Assembly: GCA_019695115.1 (NCBI GenBank)
Contig: JAIBAP010000033.1
Coordinates: 1 to 64,000 of the forward strand
Reading direction: 5' to 3'
Source: Caldilineales bacterium
Lineage (GTDB): Bacteria; Chloroflexota; Anaerolineae; J102
DNA: 64,000 nucleotides
Both the position numbers and the translations under genes were made by a program. The notes under the pieces were generated by a model that saw nothing but the letters and a program-made list of their open reading frames with translations, was not told where the DNA came from and made no database searches. Positions 1 to 56,909 of this stretch are shown one piece after another. Each line of letters starts with the position of its first letter. Position 1 is the stretch's first letter.

Positions 1-370
1 AGCCTACTTTGATGCCAGGTGTCGACTGCTCGGCCGAGCCGGCGTTTGCGCCCCTGCCTGGATTATGTGAGTTCCGCCTACTTTAACTCATCTCCCTCTC
101 TTCGGGAAACTTTGACGCCCACCCCGCGGTGGCGCGACCAGGGTCTATCAAGTTGTAACCTGATCTGGGGAAGGGTCTGATCGAACGCGGCTGCATCTGT
201 CTCGAACCGCCTGTCTTGATGCAGCAGTTGGGAGTCCTGCCAGGCTAACCAGTCGCAGGTTCATGGCCCGCCCTGGGCGCAGCGAGATTACTGACTGCAC
301 AGCCCAAAAGCGCGAAAATCGGATGTTGATCGAGTAGTTTCCCCTCTCCAGTTCGCACCGGAGGTGTGAG
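1..370. other. Non-coding stretch at window edge
   Basis: I see no credible gene here. The phrase CTACTTT..GA occurs near positions 4 and 78, and ACTTTGACGCCC near 110, a loose echo without a clear tandem register. A strong Shine-Dalgarno (GGAGGTG, about 360-366) at the right edge serves the next gene. Open frames on the minus strand are antisense to that gene and lack domain character. Confidence 0.5.
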
Positions 371-2875: not shown

Positions 2876-2960
2876 TATCGGCACGTCAGGATCAAACGAT
2901 GGGCGCGCAGCAGCAACCGTGTCTTGCTGTCACAGGGCGCAGACGAAGCGGTTGGTTGGC

Positions 2961-4244
2961 TCAGTGATCCTTGCTATACGGCTTGCCATCGGCGGCGGGC
3001 GGGATGGCGCGCCCGATCAAGCCGGCCAGGGCGATCATGGTAGCGATGTAGGGCGCCATCAACAGGAACTGCGAGGGGATGGGCACTTTCAGAATCGACA
3101 GCTTGCCCTGCAACGATTCGGCAAAACCGAAGATGAGACTGGCGCCAAAGGCCCCGAACGGCAACCACTTGCCGAAGATCATGGCGGCCAGGGCAATGAA
3201 GCCGCGCCCGGCCGTCATCACCTCGTCGAAGCGTCCCACCGAACCGAGCGTGAAATAGGCGCCGCCGAATCCGGCCACCAGCCCGCCCAGGATGACGGCC
3301 AGATAGCGGGTGCGGAAGACATTGATGCCGAGCGTATCTGCTGCCCGTGGGTGCTCGCCCACCGCCCGCGTGCGCAACCCCCAGCGCGTGTAGAACAGAC
3401 CGATGTGGATGACGATGAGCAGGATGTACATCCCGAACAAGAAGATGTTGCCCTCGAAGAAGATCGGGCCGATGATGGGGATGTCGCCCAACACCGGCAG
3501 CTTGAAAGGCTTGAACGTTCCAGGGCTATTCAACTCTTGGAATACTTGCAGGAACTTGCTGGAAATGAAACTGGTGATCCCAACCGAAAAGATGTTGATC
3601 ACCGTGCCGCTGATGATCTGGTCGACCATGTAGTGGATGGAGAGCACGGCGTGGATGCCGGCCAACAAGCCGCCGGCCAGCATCGCCGCCATCAACCCCA
3701 CCCACAGGCTGTGGCTGACGCTACCCACCAGCGCCCCCACCATCGCCCCTGTGAGGAACATGCCCTCGATGGCGATATTGACCACCCCCGCCCGCTCGCA
3801 AAGCACGCCCGACAGGGCGCCGATCGTTAGCGGCACCGCCCGCTGCACCATCGCTTTCAGCATCCCCACCAGGTTGATCGACTGGTCGCGCGTGGCCCAA
3901 ACGAGAAAAGAAAAAATGAAGAAGAGGATGATCAACCCCAGCAGGACATTGGTCGCCCGGCCGAAGCCGCGCACCAACTCGTAGGCTCCCATGCTGACCG
4001 CCACCAGCGAGAGCAAGAGCACGGTCGTGTAGGAAGGCAGCACCCAGTCGGCCAGGCGCTGGTCGGCGGGCACCGGCCCCAGGTTGAGGCCGAAGCTGGA
4101 GACCAGCCCGGAATCGACGCCCGCTGCAAACAACCAATAGATCAACAAACCGATGGCAATGAAGACGGCGCCGTAGATGCGGTGCCGGCGCTCATAGGAC
4201 TTGATGGCCGCTGATTTCGTCGCTACTGCTGTGGTCGTTGTCAT
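2961..4244 (-). CDS. BMP-type nucleoside ABC transporter permease, second subunit
   Basis: The 427-residue protein belongs to the BPD_transp_2 permease family (NupQ/YufQ branch). About nine or ten hydrophobic segments are visible, with the family signature ALSGVLCERAGVVNIAIEGM around residues 160-180 and the EHPRAADTLGI coupling segment near 300. I place the start at the ATG at 4244, because it is preceded by AGGAG 7 nt upstream and because the 28 extra codons of the longer frame are encoded by a 22-bp tandem repeat. It is the last gene of the BMP transporter cluster. Family transporters import nucleosides; the substrate here is inferred. Confidence 0.9.
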   Translation of the reverse strand: MTTTTAVATKSAAIKSYERRHRIYGAVFIAIGLLIYWLFAAGVDSGLVSSFGLNLGPVPADQRLADWVLPSYTTVLLLSLVAVSMGAYELVRGFGRATNVLLGLIILFFIFSFLVWATRDQSINLVGMLKAMVQRAVPLTIGALSGVLCERAGVVNIAIEGMFLTGAMVGALVGSVSHSLWVGLMAAMLAGGLLAGIHAVLSIHYMVDQIISGTVINIFSVGITSFISSKFLQVFQELNSPGTFKPFKLPVLGDIPIIGPIFFEGNIFLFGMYILLIVIHIGLFYTRWGLRTRAVGEHPRAADTLGINVFRTRYLAVILGGLVAGFGGAYFTLGSVGRFDEVMTAGRGFIALAAMIFGKWLPFGAFGASLIFGFAESLQGKLSILKVPIPSQFLLMAPYIATMIALAGLIGRAIPPAADGKPYSKDH

Positions 4245-4280
4245 TCGTAAACTCCTTGCATGGTTGTTTTTTTCCGAACC

Positions 4281-4430
4281 GCACGCGTTAGCAAGCGGAC
4301 TCGCACGCGTTAGCAAGCGGACTCGCACGCGTTAGCAAGCGGACTCGCACGCGTTAGCAAGCGGACTCGCACGCGTTAGCAAGCGGACTCGCACGCGTTA
4401 GCAAGCGGACTCGCACGCGTTAGCAAGCGG
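4281..4430. repeat. 22-bp tandem repeat, about 6.8 copies
   Basis: The unit GCACGCGTTAGCAAGCGG plus ACTC starts at 4281, 4303, 4325, 4347, 4369, 4391 and 4413; the seventh copy lacks the last 4 bp. All copies appear identical. The unit contains ACGCGT and imperfect dyad arms (CGC..GCG). It fills the gap between the two permease genes, ending 3 bp from the stop of the upstream one. There are no spacers, so it is not CRISPR. Confidence 0.95.
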
Positions 4431-4433
4431 AGG

Positions 4434-5678
4434 CTACTTCCCCCATCCGCGCATGAACACCTCGCCCTGGCCTTCGCCGGTCGATCGCAGCCGGTAGATG
4501 GCCCGGATGATGGCCGGTGCGGCGATGAAGGCGATGATCAGGGCCTGGATCACGTCGATGATCTCGACCGGGATGCGGGCTACATTCTGCATCCGGGTGG
4601 CGCCGCTGCGGAGGGTGCCAAAGAGCAGCCCCGTCAGCACCACCCCCAGCGGGTGGCTTTTGCCAAGCAGGGCAATGGCGATGCCGTCGAAGCCGTAGCC
4701 AGAGGAAAACGCCAGCGCCAGATTGTGATTGACCCCCAACACCTCGTTGGCTCCCGCCAGCCCCGCCAGCGCGCCCGACAGACACATAGCGATGATGATG
4801 TTGCGGGTGATGCTCATGCCGGCGTAGCGGGCGGCGTCGGGGTTCTGCCCCACCGTCCGCACCTCGAAACCCCAGGTCGTCTTGAACAGGAACCAGTAGA
4901 CGAACAGCGCCATGCCTATCGCCACGAAAAAGCCTAAATGGAAGCGGATCGGGTCGGGGAAGAAACGAGGCAACTCGGCCGACTTTTCGATGAACGGGCT
5001 GACGGGATTGGCCGATTCGGGGCGCTTGAGTGGGCCTTTGTCGCTCAGAAGCCATTCGCTCAGCCGGAAGGCGATATAGTTCATCATGATCGTGTTGATG
5101 ACCTCATGCGCCCCGGTTTTGGCTTTGAGGATGGCAGGGATGAAGGCCCAGAAGGCGCCGCCGGCCGCGCCGGCCAGGATGGCGAGGGGGAGATGGATGA
5201 TGGTTGGCAGGCCTTTGACGGCAAAGCCCACCCACACGGCGCAGATGGCGCCGACATAGAGTTGTCCTTCGACGCCGATATTGAACAGGCCCGCCCGGAA
5301 TCCGACCGCCACCGCCAGCCCCGTCAGCAGGAGCGGGGTCGCCGTCACCAGGCTGTCGGTGATCGGGTAGAACGCTTTGGCAATGGCGGCGCCGTCGCCG
5401 CTGCCGATGGCGGCGACGATCTGCGAGATCGACCCGATCGACCCCTGGAACAGCGAGCCATAGGCCGTCGCCACCGCCCGCCACATCAGCGGGAAGGCGC
5501 CGGCAAAGTCCTCGCGCAGCGCCTTCAGCACCGCCAGATCGGTGAGGATGATGACCAGCGAGCCGAGCACCAGGGCGGTGAAGATCGACAGCAGCGGGAT
5601 GACGAGCGGCTGCAGGAGCCGTCGCCAGCGCGAGGGGGCGGCGGGTGCGGGTGGGTGTGGGGCAGCGAGTTGCGCCAT
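4434..5678 (-). CDS. BMP-type nucleoside ABC transporter permease, first subunit
   Basis: The 414-residue BPD_transp_2 family permease (NupP/YufP branch) has a hydrophobic segment near 25-50 and the family core FRAGLFNIGVEGQLYVGAI around residues 125-143, then EVINTIMMNYIA and VGQNPDAARYAGM. The ATG at 5678 is chosen because AGGAG lies 7 nt upstream and the longer frame runs into non-conserved sequence. It sits 52 bp downstream of the DarT-DarG gene and 189 bp upstream of the second permease, separated from it by the 22-bp repeat array. Confidence 0.9.
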   Translation of the reverse strand: MAQLAAPHPPAPAAPSRWRRLLQPLVIPLLSIFTALVLGSLVIILTDLAVLKALREDFAGAFPLMWRAVATAYGSLFQGSIGSISQIVAAIGSGDGAAIAKAFYPITDSLVTATPLLLTGLAVAVGFRAGLFNIGVEGQLYVGAICAVWVGFAVKGLPTIIHLPLAILAGAAGGAFWAFIPAILKAKTGAHEVINTIMMNYIAFRLSEWLLSDKGPLKRPESANPVSPFIEKSAELPRFFPDPIRFHLGFFVAIGMALFVYWFLFKTTWGFEVRTVGQNPDAARYAGMSITRNIIIAMCLSGALAGLAGANEVLGVNHNLALAFSSGYGFDGIAIALLGKSHPLGVVLTGLLFGTLRSGATRMQNVARIPVEIIDVIQALIIAFIAAPAIIRAIYRLRSTGEGQGEVFMRGWGK

Positions 5679-5730
5679 AGCATCACTCCTAAGGTGAACA
5701 CTTACCGAACTACAAGGAAAATGCCAGATG

Positions 5731-6900
5731 TTAGCTAAAAAGGTACTTATACGTAAGAAATTCGTTCTGTATCTCCTGTTCCAAGGGAAGGTGGATACTA
5801 ACCGGAACATCCAAATCAAGCATCTGGCACATGATGGGGCCAACATCTTCCCATTGGAGATTGCCCAGCCCACAACCCAGGGCCGGCATGGCCAGGGATT
5901 TGATGCCCAACGGCTGATAGTTCTCCTTCACCCAGACCAAACCCTGCCGGATGCCATCGATGTCAGAATTCTCTTTCCAGTGATTCTTGGTCGCAAAAAA
6001 CAAGAACCAGGTCTCTCGATTGGTGTGCGACAGGCTAAACGGTTGGTCCGCCAGTTGATGATCGAGTGAGGTCTCTCGTTGATAGAGATAAGGCTTTCCC
6101 ATCTTCAGAAGCCCATCACGACAAACTTGCTGATATTCGACATAGGCGTCAGGAAATTGATATTTGGCCCGTGAAGCCAGGCCTTTGCCCATCACACCGA
6201 CAGTATTCACACTGATCGTCAAAGTCTGTTTGCCGGAGAAAAACATATCGCCCTTGACCAGGTTGAGATTTGGAGTCAATCTATGCTCATAAGATGGAGC
6301 AAAAAACATGTTTGGCTCAGGAATAATTTCTAGTTCTCTTTCGCCAATCAGTGCACGGAGTTTTCGTTTCACAGTGTGATTGGCTACATAAATAGAGCTG
6401 ATCAATTGTGGCGGAATGAAATCTGGCGCCAACACCTCGGCCATGATTTTTCGTTTGGTTCCGGCCTCCTCGGTCCACCAGGTCGCATTGATAACGTCTC
6501 GCATTCCGGGTAATCGCTTGATACCTTCTTCGCGAGGCAAAATCTCAGAATTGTAACTCGCTGCATTTCCGGTAGTGATGTAAATATCTGGATTGTTTAG
6601 AATACTGGTCTGTACGGCAATCACAGCTATATCATCTGGTGATTTCTCTAGAAGCACGCGATAGAGCATGGGGTTACGCGGCTGAAAGTAGAGGTTCGCA
6701 AAACTCCATAACGACTTGCCATTTGGCGTCAATCTCTGATTCCTCCCAGAGACAATTGCCTTGTCGTAGATCGGCGTGTGCGCAATGCCATCCGCCTCGA
6801 TCTTGGCATGAGAGAGTATCCCATACCTCAAGATCGACGGAATATTGTCGATGTGCGTGATGTAATAAAGCTCGCGTAAACGCCGATTCTGCTTGTTCAT
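5731..6900 (-). CDS. DarT-DarG fusion: DNA ADP-ribosyltransferase toxin joined to macrodomain antitoxin
   Basis: Residues about 9-195 match the DarT (DUF4433) DNA ADP-ribosyltransferase: YYITHIDNIPSILRYGI (His16), NLYFQPRNPMLYRV (69-82) and KIMAEVLAPDFIPPQLI with Glu155, the likely catalytic Glu. Residues about 207-370 form a DarG-type macrodomain: LVKGDMF, SVNTVGVMGKGLASRAKYQF (230-249), MPALGCGLGNLQWEDV. DarT marks thymidine in single-stranded DNA and DarG removes it; normally they are two genes. The C-terminal DarT-binding domain of standard DarG is missing. The ORF starts 9 bp after the ATPase stop and ends 52 bp before the permease start, so it is embedded in the transporter operon. GC is visibly lower (near 50%), suggesting transfer. 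No clear Shine-Dalgarno. Confidence 0.85.
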   Translation of the reverse strand: MNKQNRRLRELYYITHIDNIPSILRYGILSHAKIEADGIAHTPIYDKAIVSGRNQRLTPNGKSLWSFANLYFQPRNPMLYRVLLEKSPDDIAVIAVQTSILNNPDIYITTGNAASYNSEILPREEGIKRLPGMRDVINATWWTEEAGTKRKIMAEVLAPDFIPPQLISSIYVANHTVKRKLRALIGERELEIIPEPNMFFAPSYEHRLTPNLNLVKGDMFFSGKQTLTISVNTVGVMGKGLASRAKYQFPDAYVEYQQVCRDGLLKMGKPYLYQRETSLDHQLADQPFSLSHTNRETWFLFFATKNHWKENSDIDGIRQGLVWVKENYQPLGIKSLAMPALGCGLGNLQWEDVGPIMCQMLDLDVPVSIHLPLEQEIQNEFLTYKYLFS

Positions 6901-6909
6901 AGCCAGATT

Positions 6910-8475
6910 CTAGAACACCGCTTCGGCTTCGTCCTCGGCCGGCTCCTCGATGGGGGCAATCTGATCGGGGCTGACGCCGGCCATGAGCAGGCCGAGATAT
7001 TCCTTCGTCACGTGCGGCGAATCGACGATGGCGATGATCTTGCCGCGATACATCACAGCAATGCGGTCCGACAGGGCCATGATCTCGTCCAGTTCGGTGG
7101 AGACGAGCAGCACGGCGCAGCCCGTGTCGCGCTTTTCGAGGATGCGCGAATGGATGTACTCGATCGAGCCGACATCCAGGCCACGGGTTGGTTGCGAGGC
7201 GATGAGCAGCTTGATCGGGCGCGAGAACTCGCGGGCGACGATCACCTTCTGCTGGTTGCCGCCCGAGAGCGAACTGGCCGGTGTGCCGATGCCGGGCGTC
7301 CGCACATCGAATTGCTTGACCAGATCGGTCGCCGCCTTGCCCACCTCGTCTTGCTGGATGACGACGCCCCTGGCGAAGGGCGGCAGATAATAGGTGTTCA
7401 GCACCATGTTATCGGCGATGGGATAGGAGAGCACCAGCCCATCCGCCTGGCGGTCTTCGGGCACATGCGCCACTCCGGTCTCGACCACCTTGCGTGGGGT
7501 GGCGCGGGTCGTATCCTTGCCATCGATAGAGATGGCGCCGCTCAGAGCCGAACGCAGCCCCGTCAACGCCTCGACGAATTCGGTCTGACCGTTGCCCTGC
7601 ACCCCCGCCACCCCCACCACCTCGCCCGCCCGCACCTCCAGCGTGACTTCATTGACGGCCAGGTTCTCGCGGTCGTCCAACACACTCAGGCGGTCGATCT
7701 TGAGCACCGTATCGCCGGGGACGCAGTGCGTCTTCTTGGCCTTGAGGCTCACATCGCGGCCTACCATCATCGACGCCAACTGCGGTTGCGTAGCGGCCTT
7801 GGGGTCGGCCTGCCCCACCACCTTGCCCAGCCGCAGCACGGTGATGCGGTCGGCCACTGCCAGCACCTCGCGCAGCTTGTGGGTGATGAAGATGATCGAT
7901 TTGCCCTGCGCCACCAGCGACTGCATCACCTTGAACAGTTCATCCGCCTCCTGCGGCGTCAACACCGCCGTCGGCTCATCCAGGATGAGGATGTCAGCGC
8001 TGCGATAGAGCAGCTTGATGATTTCGACCCGCTGCTGCACCCCCACTGGCAGATCTTTGATATAGCTGTTCGGGTCTACCGCCAGACCGAACTTCTCCGA
8101 AATCTCGCGGATGCGGGCAGCGGACTTGCGCCGATCTAGAAACACACCGCCCCGCAGAGACTCGACTCCCAACATCACATTCTCGGTCACGGTCAGCACC
8201 GGCACCAACATGAAATGCTGATGCACCATCCCCACCCCCGCGTCGATGGCGTCGTTGGGGCTGTGGACGGTCAACTTCTTGCCCTTGACGATGATCTCCC
8301 CCTCGTCCGGCTGATAGAGGCCGTAGAGGATGTTCATCAACGTGGATTTGCCGGCGCCATTCTCGCCGAGCAGGGCCAGGATCTCACCCTGATTCAACTC
8401 CAGGTCGATGTGATCGTTGGCCAACACGCCAGGAAAACGTTTGGTGATGCCGCGGAGTTGGAGGATAGGCGCCAT
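6910..8475 (-). CDS. BMP-type nucleoside ABC transporter, duplicated ATPase subunit
   Basis: The 521-residue protein carries two ABC ATPase modules in one chain, as in NupO/YufO and RbsA-like sugar importers. Module 1 has Walker A GENGAGKST (about 36-44), signature LPVGVQQRVEIIKLLYR and Walker B ILILDEPTAVLTP. Module 2 has the relaxed Walker A GVQGNGQTE, signature LSGGNQQKVIVAREF and LLIASQPTRGLDVG, i.e. a degenerate second Walker B, usual for this family. The ATG at 8475 begins MAPILQLRGITKRFPG, matching family N-termini; longer frames enter an octamer repeat. It powers import with the two downstream permeases. Confidence 0.92.
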   Translation of the reverse strand: MAPILQLRGITKRFPGVLANDHIDLELNQGEILALLGENGAGKSTLMNILYGLYQPDEGEIIVKGKKLTVHSPNDAIDAGVGMVHQHFMLVPVLTVTENVMLGVESLRGGVFLDRRKSAARIREISEKFGLAVDPNSYIKDLPVGVQQRVEIIKLLYRSADILILDEPTAVLTPQEADELFKVMQSLVAQGKSIIFITHKLREVLAVADRITVLRLGKVVGQADPKAATQPQLASMMVGRDVSLKAKKTHCVPGDTVLKIDRLSVLDDRENLAVNEVTLEVRAGEVVGVAGVQGNGQTEFVEALTGLRSALSGAISIDGKDTTRATPRKVVETGVAHVPEDRQADGLVLSYPIADNMVLNTYYLPPFARGVVIQQDEVGKAATDLVKQFDVRTPGIGTPASSLSGGNQQKVIVAREFSRPIKLLIASQPTRGLDVGSIEYIHSRILEKRDTGCAVLLVSTELDEIMALSDRIAVMYRGKIIAIVDSPHVTKEYLGLLMAGVSPDQIAPIEEPAEDEAEAVF

Positions 8476-8510
8476 AGCGAATCCTGTTCTGAGTGGGGTT
8501 TGGGAGGGGT

Positions 8511-8652
8511 GGTAGACAGGTATAGAAAGGGCAGGTAGACAAGTAGACAAGAAGTAAGTAGACAAGGTTCGGTCGCCGTCCCTCTGGCGACACAAGACCT
8601 GTCCCTGCGACCTTGTCTATTTATCAACCTGTCTACTTGTCTACTCTTTTAC
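8511..8652. repeat. Octamer array with inverted arms (GTAGACAR type)
   Basis: 8511-8567 contains GTAGACAG/GTAGACAA-like units; 8610-8652 contains the complementary form (CTTGTCTA, CTGTCTAC, TTGTCTAC). The arms can pair into a long imperfect hairpin lying between the BMP lipoprotein and ATPase genes. In the sense of the operon the purine-rich arm is 5' and the pyrimidine-rich arm leads to the ATPase start. Confidence 0.8.
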
Positions 8653-8785: not shown

Positions 8786-10912
8786 TTACGGCAGGCTGCT
8801 GAAGCTGTTGACTTTGATCTTGCCGTCGATGATGTCCTGAGTGACCTGGGCGACGCCATCCTTGACGGCCTGGGGCACCTCGCCGTCGAAGTTGTGGAAG
8901 GGAGCGATGCCGATTTCGCCGTTGGCCAGGGTGGCGACCTTGACGCCGCCAGCGTAGGAGCCATCGGCCACGGCTCGCGTCGCCGAAGCGACCGAGAGTT
9001 CCAGGTGTTTGAGCACGCTGGTGAGGACGATGTCCTTGTACTCAGGTGCGCTCACGAACCAGTCGGTGTCAACGCCGACGAGCATGACGCCGGGGTTCTC
9101 CTTCACTGCCGCCGCCGTGCCCAGACCCACCGGGCCGGCCACCGGCATGATGATGTCGGCGCCCTCGTCGATCAGGTTCTGGCCGAACTGCTTGCCCTTG
9201 TCCTGGTCGCTGAAGTCACCCGTGAACAAGCCGTCCTTGGTGGCATTGTCCCAACCCAAGAGTTCGACCGCAGTGCCGTTCTGCTGATTGTAGTACTCGA
9301 TGCCTTCCTGGAAGCCCACCATGAAGTCGGCCACGGGCGGGATGTTGATGCCGCCGAAGGTGCCGACCTTGCCGGTCTTGGTCATGCCAGCCGCCACATA
9401 GCCGGCCAGGAATGCGCCTTCCTGGGTGGCGTAGACCTGCTGCCAGACGTTGTCATAGGGGTCGGCATAGGCAAAGTCAAGGATCTGGAACTTCTGATCC
9501 GGGTTCGCCGTCGCCGCCGCCGCCGTGGCATCGCCCAAGAGGAAGCCGACGGTCACGATCAGGTCGCAGTCCGAGGCGATGAACTCGTTGATGTTCTTCT
9601 CGTAGTCGGTCTGCTGCTGCGACTCCAGATACGTCGCCTCCCAACCCAACTCTGCCGCCACCGCTTCGGCGCCATCCCACGCCGTCTGGTTGAACGACTT
9701 GTCGTCCACACCACCCGTGTCCGTCACCTCGCACACCTTGCCGCCTTCCATCATCGCCGTTTCACCCAATGTGCTGAAGCTGTTGACTTTGATCTTGCCG
9801 TCGATGATGTCCTGAGTGACCTGGGCGACGCCATCCTTGACGGCCTGGGGCACCTCGCCGTCGAAGTTGTGGAAGGGAGCGATGCCGATTTCGCCGTTGG
9901 CCAGGGTGGCGACCTTGACGCCGCCAGCGTAGGAGCCATCGGCCACGGCTCGCGTCGCCGAAGCGACCGAGAGTTCCAGGTGTTTGAGCACGCTGGTGAG
10001 GACGATGTCCTTGTACTCAGGTGCGCTCACGAACCAGTCGGTGTCAACGCCGACGAGCATGACGCCGGGGTTCTCCTTCACTGCCGCCGCCGTGCCCAGA
10101 CCCACCGGGCCGGCCACCGGCATGATGATGTCGGCGCCCTCGTCGATCAGGTTCTGGCCGAACTGCTTGCCCTTGTCCTGGTCGCTGAAGTCACCCGTGA
10201 ACAAGCCGTCCTTGGTGGCATTGTCCCAACCCAAGAGTTCGACCGCAGTGCCGTTCTGCTGATTGTAGTACTCGATGCCTTCCTGGAAGCCCACCATGAA
10301 GTCGGCCACGGGCGGGATGTTGATGCCGCCGAAGGTGCCGACCTTGCCGGTCTTGGTCATGCCAGCCGCCACATAGCCGGCCAGGAATGCGCCTTCCTGG
10401 GTGGCGTAGACCTGCTGCCAGACGTTGTCATAGGGGTCGGCATAGGCAAAGTCAAGGATCTGGAACTTCTGATCCGGGTTCGCCGTCGCCGCCGCCGCCG
10501 TGGCATCGCCCAAGAGGAAGCCGACGGTCACGATCAGGTCGCAGTCCGAGGCGATGAACTCGTTGATGTTCTTCTCGTAGTCGGTCTGCTGCTGCGACTC
10601 CAGATACGTCGCCTCCCAACCCAACTCTGCCGCCACCGCTTCGGCGCCATCCCACGCCGTCTGGTTGAACGACTTGTCGTCCACACCACCCGTGTCCGTC
10701 ACCTCGCACACCTTGCCTTTGGCTTCGGGGGCGGCGGTAGGTTCAGGCGCTTTGGTGGGTTCGGGCGCTTTCGTCGGCTCAGGGGCTTTCGTCGGCGCTG
10801 CGGTCGGTGGGGGCGCCTCGGTGGGAGCAGGCGTGGCGCGCCCGCCGCAGGCGGCGAGCACGAAGGCCGCCACCAAGATGACGGTCAAGACAGTAAACAG
10901 TCGTTTGTACAT
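8786..10912 (-). CDS. BMP-family nucleoside-binding lipoprotein with two identical tandem binding domains
   Basis: The 708-residue protein starts with a lipoprotein signal (MYKRLFTVLTVILVAAFVLA then AC, lipidated Cys22), followed by a Pro/Thr/Ala linker with EPTKAP repeats (about 23-65). Two PBP1-like BMP domains (about 66-380 and 391-708) each begin KVCEVTDTGGVDDKSFNQTA, the family ligand-loop motif. The domains are identical because the DNA is a direct repeat of period 975 bp (see repeat entry); a short linker (TLGETAMMEGG) joins them. Family members are about 330-390 aa with one domain. The ATG at 10912 has AAGGAGG upstream. It should be anchored outside the membrane and feed the permeases. 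Confidence 0.9.
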   Translation of the reverse strand: MYKRLFTVLTVILVAAFVLAACGGRATPAPTEAPPPTAAPTKAPEPTKAPEPTKAPEPTAAPEAKGKVCEVTDTGGVDDKSFNQTAWDGAEAVAAELGWEATYLESQQQTDYEKNINEFIASDCDLIVTVGFLLGDATAAAATANPDQKFQILDFAYADPYDNVWQQVYATQEGAFLAGYVAAGMTKTGKVGTFGGINIPPVADFMVGFQEGIEYYNQQNGTAVELLGWDNATKDGLFTGDFSDQDKGKQFGQNLIDEGADIIMPVAGPVGLGTAAAVKENPGVMLVGVDTDWFVSAPEYKDIVLTSVLKHLELSVASATRAVADGSYAGGVKVATLANGEIGIAPFHNFDGEVPQAVKDGVAQVTQDIIDGKIKVNSFSTLGETAMMEGGKVCEVTDTGGVDDKSFNQTAWDGAEAVAAELGWEATYLESQQQTDYEKNINEFIASDCDLIVTVGFLLGDATAAAATANPDQKFQILDFAYADPYDNVWQQVYATQEGAFLAGYVAAGMTKTGKVGTFGGINIPPVADFMVGFQEGIEYYNQQNGTAVELLGWDNATKDGLFTGDFSDQDKGKQFGQNLIDEGADIIMPVAGPVGLGTAAAVKENPGVMLVGVDTDWFVSAPEYKDIVLTSVLKHLELSVASATRAVADGSYAGGVKVATLANGEIGIAPFHNFDGEVPQAVKDGVAQVTQDIIDGKIKVNSFSSLP
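8798..10717. repeat. 945-bp direct tandem duplication, period 975 bp
   Basis: 8798-9742 and 9773-10717 are identical wherever I compared them (including long identical frames in other phases at 9009/9984 and 9477/10452). The 30 bp between them (9743-9772) is unique. 975 is a multiple of three, so the host gene stays open. Confidence 0.93.
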
Positions 10913-25973: not shown

Positions 25974-27116
25974 ATGGCAAGTGAATCCGCGACCGGTTTT
26001 GTTTCCGGTCTCGAAGGCGTCGTCGCGGCGCAAACCCGCATCAGCCATGTCGATGGCCTGGCCGGGGAATTGATCCTGGCCGGGTATCGGCTGGAAGATA
26101 TAGCAGGTGAAGTTTCGTTCGAGGAGATGGCCTTTTTGCTCTGGCACGATCGCCTGCCCACCGCCGCCGAGGCGGCGCAGATGGGCGCCGACCTGGCGCG
26201 CTGGCGGCGCCTGCCGCAGCCCACGCTCGATCTGCTGGCTGCGGCGGCGCGGGCCGGCTACCCGGCCATGGATGCGCTGCGGATGGCGATCGGGGCCTGC
26301 GACCTCGACCTGACGGCCGCCGAACGCGACCAGACGACCCTGGGCCAGGTGTTGTTGGCGCGCACGCCCACCGCTGTGGCCGCTTACTGGCGGTTGCGCC
26401 AGGGCCTGGCGCCCGTCGCCCCCGATCCTGACCTGGGCCATGCCGCGAACTATCTCACCATGCTGACCGGCGTCCGGCCCAGCCCGGCCCGTGTGCGCGG
26501 GCTGGAGACCTACCTGAACACGGTCATCGACCATGGGCTGAACGCCTCCACCTTCACTGCCCGCGTGATCATCTCCACCCGCGCGGACATGGTCTCGGCT
26601 ATCACCGGGGCCATCGGCGCCCTCAAGGGGCCGCTGCACGGCGGCGCGCCGGGGCCGGCGTTGGCGATGGTCTTCGAGATCGGCGCCGCCGAGCGGGCGG
26701 AGCCGTATCTGCGGGCCAAACTGGAGCAGGGTGAGCGCCTGATGGGGTTTGGGCATCGCATCTACAAGGTGCGCGACCCGCGCGCCCAGGTTTTGGCCAC
26801 TGCTGCCAGGTCGATGTATGCCGCCGATGGGGACATGGCCCTTTACACGCTGGCCAGTCAGGTCGAGGAGACGGCCGTGCGGCTGCTGGCCGAGTACAAA
26901 CCGGGGCGAAATCTGCAAACCAATGTCGAATTCTACACGGCGCTGCTCTTGCATGGCCTGGGCTTGGAGGTCGAACTCTTTACCCCGACCTTTGCCGTGG
27001 GACGTGTGGCGGGCTGGATCGCTCATGCCTGGGAGCAACTGGCCACCGGCAGGCTGATCCGCCCCGCCTCGGAATATATCGGCGCCCGCGGGCGAAGGAA
27101 AGCGGGAGAGGAGTAG
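25974..27116 (+). CDS. Citrate/2-methylcitrate synthase
   Basis: The 380-residue protein has the citrate synthase fold: FVSGLEGVVAAQTRISHVDG at the N-terminus, VIDHGLNASTFTARVI (catalytic His near 190), LHGGAPGPA, LMGFGHRIYKVRDPRA (second His, CoA-binding Arg) and NVEFYTALLLHGLG (catalytic Asp replaced by Glu-Phe region, as in some bacterial forms). It condenses oxaloacetate with acetyl-CoA or propionyl-CoA; sequence alone does not decide. AAGGAG lies 7 nt before the ATG at 25974. Its TAG stop is the first part of a long octamer repeat. Confidence 0.9.
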   Translation: MASESATGFVSGLEGVVAAQTRISHVDGLAGELILAGYRLEDIAGEVSFEEMAFLLWHDRLPTAAEAAQMGADLARWRRLPQPTLDLLAAAARAGYPAMDALRMAIGACDLDLTAAERDQTTLGQVLLARTPTAVAAYWRLRQGLAPVAPDPDLGHAANYLTMLTGVRPSPARVRGLETYLNTVIDHGLNASTFTARVIISTRADMVSAITGAIGALKGPLHGGAPGPALAMVFEIGAAERAEPYLRAKLEQGERLMGFGHRIYKVRDPRAQVLATAARSMYAADGDMALYTLASQVEETAVRLLAEYKPGRNLQTNVEFYTALLLHGLGLEVELFTPTFAVGRVAGWIAHAWEQLATGRLIRPASEYIGARGRRKAGEE

Positions 27117-27365
27117 ATAGGTAGACAGGTAGACAAGTAGACAGGTAGACAAGTAGATAGGTAGACAAGTAGACAGGTAGACAAGTAGACAGGTAGATAG
27201 GTAGATAGGTAGACAAGTAGAAAAGTAGATGGGTAGACAAGTAGACAGGTAGATTGTTAGACAAGTAGATAGGTAGACAAGTAAATCGGTAGATAGGTGG
27301 ACAGGTGGCCAAGCAGTCAGGTAGATGTACGGCCTTGTCTACTTGCCCACTTGTCTGTCCAGGTG
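27113..27365. repeat. Long octamer array, about 27 units, with inverted distal arm
   Basis: From the citrate synthase stop to about 27327 the plus strand reads in strict 8-nt register: GTAGATAG, GTAGACAG, GTAGACAA and variants (GTAGAAAA, GTAGATTG, GTGGACAG). The stop codon TAG is part of the first unit. At about 27333-27360 the complement appears (CTTGTCTACTTG, CTTGTCTG), leading toward the next gene, so a very long imperfect hairpin could form. The rest of the 350-bp gap to 27466 shows no gene; AGGAG before 27467 is the next gene's Shine-Dalgarno. Confidence 0.95.
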
Positions 27366-56750: not shown

Positions 56751-56909
56751 TAAGAAGGTAGACAAGGAAACAAGTAGACAAGGAAACAAGTAGACAAGGA
56801 AACAATCAACAATCAACAATCAACAATCAACCAGCCACCTGCCACTTGCGACCTGCCCTTGCCACTTGCGACCTGCCACTTGCCACCTGCGACCTGCCAC
56901 TTGCCACTC
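56751..56909. repeat. Compound repeat array between asd and the HAD-like gene
   Basis: GTAGACAA + GGAAACAA 16-mers (56757-56803), CAATCAA heptamers (56803-56832), then CACCTGC, CACTTGC, GACCTGC, CACTTGC heptamers to about 56909. The last block is in frame with the downstream gene and provides TTG codons. Confidence 0.92.

Follow-up and report, generated by a model that had tools for sequence, protein, structure and literature searches.

How does one gene come to carry the same 946 bases twice without a single difference, and what could its product do with two copies of one domain? This question is raised by a lipoprotein gene in the window, i.e., the whole stretch of 64,000 nucleotides from a Caldilineales bacterium that was analyzed here. 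Exact comparison revealed two identical copies of 946 bp on the minus strand, with a period of 975 bp and a unique linker of 29 bp between them (Table 1). An initial annotation had proposed a perfect in-frame duplication of 945 bp with a unique 30-bp linker at 9743-9772; the perfect identity, the frame, the period and the uniqueness of the linker were confirmed, and the two lengths had to be corrected. The gene runs from an ATG at 10912 to a stop codon at 8786, with the repeat in frame, and its 708 aa product shows, in order, a lipoprotein signal (lipobox LAAC), a Pro-rich tether, a first head, the linker and a second head. The N-terminal head is followed by STLGETAMMEGG and the C-terminal head terminates in SSLP and the stop codon. 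No other fully identical direct repeat of at least 80 nt was found within the window. A search of the bacterium's own genome allowing up to three mismatches located no second occurrence of the linker, that is, no template for its 29 bp.

Table 1. Coordinates of the two-headed gene, its parts and the importer genes of the same operon in the window.
Feature	Position	Strand	Basis
Two-headed BMP/PnrA-like substrate-binding lipoprotein, 708 aa	8786..10912	-	PF02608 in two stretches; model with two complete domains
Lipoprotein signal MYKRLFTVLTVILVAAFVLAAC, lipobox LAAC, extent approximate	10850..10912	-	Read from sequence; helix 2-21 in model
Pro/Thr/Ala-rich flexible tether (APTKAPEPTKAPEPT...)	10718..10849	-	Sequence; residues 22-62 with pLDDT <50
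N-terminal head, identical repeat copy	9772..10717	-	Exact comparison
Inter-head linker, unique 29 bp (STLGETAMMEGG region)	9743..9771	-	Single occurrence in genome; residues 381-387 with pLDDT <50
C-terminal head, identical repeat copy	8797..9742	-	Exact comparison
ABC ATPase, two ABC_tran stretches	6910..8595	-	PF00005 twice; comparison with L040 places the start at an ATG within the ORF
Permease 1 (BPD_transp_2)	4434..5873	-	PF02653; true start probably further inside the ORF
Permease 2 (BPD_transp_2)	2961..4328	-	PF02653

The window is the start of a 66,310-bp contig (C33) of a genome in 135 contigs, and at least ten other contigs have ends nearly identical to its first 124-128 bases. Such shared ends are the signature of a short-read de Bruijn assembly with k=127, broken by the multi-copy element located at these ends. 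Window positions 1-127 are common to the ends of C64, C15, C60, C55, C11, C118, C94, C61, C28, C12 and C6. Since the repeat exceeds k in such an assembly, the assembler itself might have duplicated a single-headed gene. However, all three junctions (tether-head, head-linker-head and head-stop) are spanned by 127-mers, so reads must carry the 29-bp linker flanked by head sequence, and other genomes, single-contig ones among them, show the same layout with different linkers and non-identical heads. An artefact of this kind is therefore very improbable, and at least two heads can be taken as safe. Thus, the assembly error that had been suspected does not apply to the two-headed layout, which 127-mers and single-contig genomes support; it does bear on the exact copy number and the strict identity, which the k=127 assembly leaves exposed, as the assembler could have levelled small differences between the copies and the true number of heads may exceed two. 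In two other genomes, BMP genes break off inside a head at a contig end (L108 and L109 in G002; L110 and L111 in G005), which is what would be seen where short-read assembly fails on repeated heads. Two-headed genes are probably under-counted, because short-read assemblies can break, collapse or smooth them.

The PF02608 (Bmp/PnrA-like) profile matched the window protein in two stretches with 342.7 bits against a curated cut-off of 24.1 (E 2e-102). An AlphaFold2 model (mean pLDDT 85) showed two complete heads, mostly at pLDDT 85-98, with a disordered tether and linker and with a head orientation that is not fixed (pTM 0.50). All close PDB matches to this model were single BMP/PnrA heads; the best was guanosine-bound Lbp (7x0r, TM 0.88 over the target), followed by pneumococcal PnrA, BmpD with adenosine and TmpC with inosine, several of them with bound nucleosides. 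The BmpA pocket has been described as F27, F151, F176, V224, D225 and K242 (PMC13325309). By alignment to PnrA and to this BmpA description, the corresponding residues in head 1 are F82, F205, F242, V289, D290 and K310, and head 2 has the same six, i.e., both heads possess the aromatic cradle and the polar contacts of a nucleoside pocket. Across 36 two-headed proteins, both heads likewise retain the pocket residues almost throughout. The only hydrophobic helix of the window protein is the signal peptide and the chain stops after head 2; fusion of the binding domains to a transmembrane subunit, as in OpuA and GlnPQ, was not found, and the permeases are encoded by separate genes. The Pfam match, the model, the conserved pockets and 35 two-headed relatives in the class all sustain the proposal of a two-headed BMP lipoprotein. 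It could be argued that just one head matters, the second being a spacer that recombination keeps similar with no functional need, since homogenization is automatic in tandem copies and does not require selection. Yet pockets are intact in both heads across the 36 proteins, including pairs that are 39-75% identical and show little sign of recent conversion, and we consider this explanation unlikely.

The two-headed gene heads an operon and is followed by genes for a two-domain ATPase and two BPD_transp_2 permeases, which is the operon arrangement of the BMP family. The operon encodes a single importer with two heads on one anchor. The syntenic operon of another genome of the genus (L040) also encodes a ribokinase and RbsD, and an inosine-uridine nucleoside hydrolase is encoded in the operon of one two-headed relative. 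Nucleoside uptake is the best reading of the role of the gene, with a nucleoside as the presumed substrate. In one ORF of the window (5731-6900, minus strand), DarT (PF14487) precedes a DarG-type macro domain, with PADLOC matches to both DarT and DarG. This ORF is located between the importer ATPase and permease 1, and as it is absent from the operon L040 of the same genus, it seems to be a fused DarTG-like gene that was inserted into the importer operon. Between the permease genes, a perfect 22-bp tandem repeat of 6.9 copies was identified at 4280-4431 that may reach the called start of permease 2. Many short arrays with periods of 7, 8 or 14 bp occur at 8510-8640, 27113-27325, 56758-56831 and other places in the window, and the intergenic ones include GTAGACAG/GTAGACAA-like units.

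We searched 396 sampled genomes from the class, retrieved the matching regions and mapped their domains. The initial annotation had treated the gene as a singular oddity; instead, the architecture is recurrent and phylum-wide. These genomes encode at least 36 two-headed BMP proteins, that of the window among them, spread over 17 families, and others occur in Chloroflexia, including the finished genome of Chloroflexus aurantiacus J-10-fl. The head-to-head identity within one protein ranged from 39% to 100%. The heads were identical at every base compared in the window, L027 and L048, and 98.8-99.7% identical at the nucleotide level in L011, L049 and L015. In a tree of 91 heads, the heads paired within their own protein in about 16 cases, but in four families they grouped by position, first heads with first heads. 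The two-headed design has therefore arisen several times, and some lineages have inherited it over a long time. Among the 75 matches listed from plasmid records, a limited sample, no two-headed BMP was found, all being single-headed by span, and no description of two-headed BMP proteins was found in the open-access papers searched. A binding head was also observed outside a transporter context, in a protein of 1288 aa that combines WD40-like repeats with a BMP domain at its C-terminus (L114 in G221, 2956-6822, minus strand).

Relatives with finished genomes allowed a closer view of how heads become alike. Seven genomes of one family outside the class encode full-length two-headed BMP proteins with a recognizably shared linker (TGVDP.SGD.DP.TIP.P.PF). 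In G500, which we take as C. aurantiacus J-10-fl (a single contig of 5,258,541 bases), the heads are 99.0% identical to each other in DNA and 100% in protein, and 82-88% to the heads of five close congeners. Three congeners of the Chloroflexus group have heads that are 86-88% alike, with position-specific orthology. Since the linker is shared and yet the heads are closer within the species than between congeners, conversion can be assigned to this group. In the same group, the two-headed protein L121 is a mosaic, and in L124 a stretch of 836 identical nt gives way abruptly to a diverged end (p=0.001 against codon shuffles). Within the class, identical tracts of 627, 540 and 773 nt were located in L054, L064 and L015 (p=0.001 each), and in these three, in L049, L026, L060 and in others the identical tracts far exceed the codon-shuffle expectation (p=0.001). 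In the species pair L060/L063, several tracts are closer within the protein than between the species, whereas the ends are not. Greater likeness within than between species, the pattern of concerted evolution, is thus seen both in the Chloroflexus group and among the mosaics from several lineages of the class. Sequence comparison of the finished-genome relatives demonstrates recurrent intragenic gene conversion, in which a shared duplication would have undergone repeated partial or complete homogenization; duplications that occurred independently are not enough to account for the mosaics.

Four lineages with old head pairs have a C-terminal island of some 25 codons, in which the divergence between the two heads exceeds that between species by 21-30 percentage points. 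Conversion tracts may seldom extend to this edge, or the linker-side end of head 1 may be constrained unlike the free end of head 2. The island families are f19, f46, f20 and f33 (L069-L076, L065-L068, L042-L044, L060 and L063), and the remaining head sequence is more alike in them. An origin of L026/L027 by conversion of the diverged second head of L014/L016 was considered and rejected, as these heads are 39% identical and too far apart; the linker start shared by the two pairs is the natural tail of head 1.

What, then, made the window copies identical? The two heads show no differences at 310 aligned domain codons, far beyond what chance or protein-level constraint would be expected to leave, whereas at the same 310 codons they differ from the head of the closest complete relative, a single-headed protein of the same genus (L040 in G001), by 75 synonymous and 42 non-synonymous codons. 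From this comparison, the last homogenizing event is far younger than the split from G001. This event could be the duplication itself: a recent in-frame tandem duplication with a filler-DNA junction would leave copies identical through their youth, with no conversion, and would replace the homogenization step of our reading only. Consistent with it, G001 is single-headed, the identity spans the full heads, including the C-terminal codons that differ in the four lineages above, and the tree places both window heads together within a clade of single heads. On the other hand, a pure tandem copy leaves no unique linker, and the 29 unique, untemplated bases need either filler DNA or older copies. 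The head tips are AGC ACA TTG in head 1, AGC AGC CTG in head 2 and TCG ACC TTG in G001; that the tip of head 1 resembles the ancestral end more closely than that of head 2 weakly favors older copies that were later converted. The single-headed state of G001 could also be due to loop-out or assembly collapse, and in G002 contig ends interrupt the gene within the head at either side, like an unresolved repeat. The test of likeness within and between species gives identical copies here, but the complete congener is single-headed. We therefore see fresh duplication as a real possibility, somewhat short of probable, and the odds of conversion and duplication at this locus as nearly equal. Both the very recent event and the gene conversion that had been proposed fit the window gene, and conversion is demonstrated in the finished-genome relatives; the window is the fully homogenized extreme of the series.

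Heads of other types are also joined to BMP heads. We identified the arrangements BMP-BMP-PhnD (L011, L045), BMP-BMP-SBP_bac_8 (L054), SBP_bac_8-BMP-BMP (L064), PhnD-BMP (L091, L093), SBP_bac_8-BMP (L082), BMP-SBP_bac_8 (L096, L099) and Peripla_BP_4-BMP (L094). In the operons L141, L142 and L149, genes for BPD_transp_1 permeases accompany those for the mixed lipoprotein and the BMP importer, and L141 and L142 encode one more ATPase; in L144, L146 and L147 the BMP importer alone was seen. These operons suggest that the different head types may each have a permease of their own. The window heads might likewise serve two importers or a sensor rather than one importer, given that mixed relatives (BMP-BMP-PhnD, SBP_bac_8-BMP-BMP) adjoin genes for a second permease type; however, the window operon encodes one importer and its heads are identical, so they presumably have the same partner, and we find this improbable. 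For Chloroflexota at large we tentatively propose that the substrate-binding lipoprotein has been made into a modular multi-headed receptor, in which identical heads kept alike by conversion would boost one importer and mixed heads would serve two importers of the same operon.

For the window gene, the reading that we consider likely is a lipid-anchored two-headed nucleoside receptor for the adjoining BMP-type ABC importer, with heads kept alike by intragenic recombination. One lipid anchor and a disordered tether would carry two complete PnrA-like heads on a short flexible linker, each predicted to bind a nucleoside independently. Both heads could dock alternately with one permease pair, which would always keep a second loaded head near; a kinetic benefit may follow, and the raised local substrate concentration at the transporter that had been suggested is plausible by analogy with OpuA and GlnPQ. 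The tandem copies would recombine within the gene, and conversion, or loss and re-duplication, would erase their differences. Here a phylum keeps re-making multi-headed free lipoproteins with recombination-homogenized heads, and finished genomes within it show clearly that domains of a single gene can evolve in concert. Natural one-, two- and three-headed versions allow tests of receptor number near the translocator against uptake rate.

Binding proteins are usually described as one domain per chain or as permease-fused domains. The window protein shares with PnrA/TmpC, BmpA-D and Lbp (PF02608) the fold, the lipobox, the pocket residues and an operon with an ATPase and two BPD_transp_2-type permeases, but the solved members found are single heads, whereas here two identical heads stand on one anchor. 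In OpuA, two like domains per complex cooperate and reach millimolar local concentration near the translocator (PMC11065425). The window protein is predicted to resemble it in keeping two like binding domains close to one translocator; however, OpuA is a homodimer with the domains fused to its membrane subunits, and the window heads belong to one separate lipoprotein chain. GlnPQ also carries binding domains in tandem on a short linker, and its SBD1-SBD2 pair, joined by 14 residues, acts largely independently (PMC8025302); yet those domains differ in specificity and are permease-fused, whereas the window heads are identical and part of a free lipoprotein. Recurrent concerted evolution is known in prokaryotes for tuf and other genes (PMC6053082), with the same greater likeness within than between species, although there it involves whole genes and here two domains in one gene. 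The underlying kinds are thus known, and what is new is a homotypic two-headed receptor that is free and lipid-anchored and whose relatives show concerted evolution within the gene.
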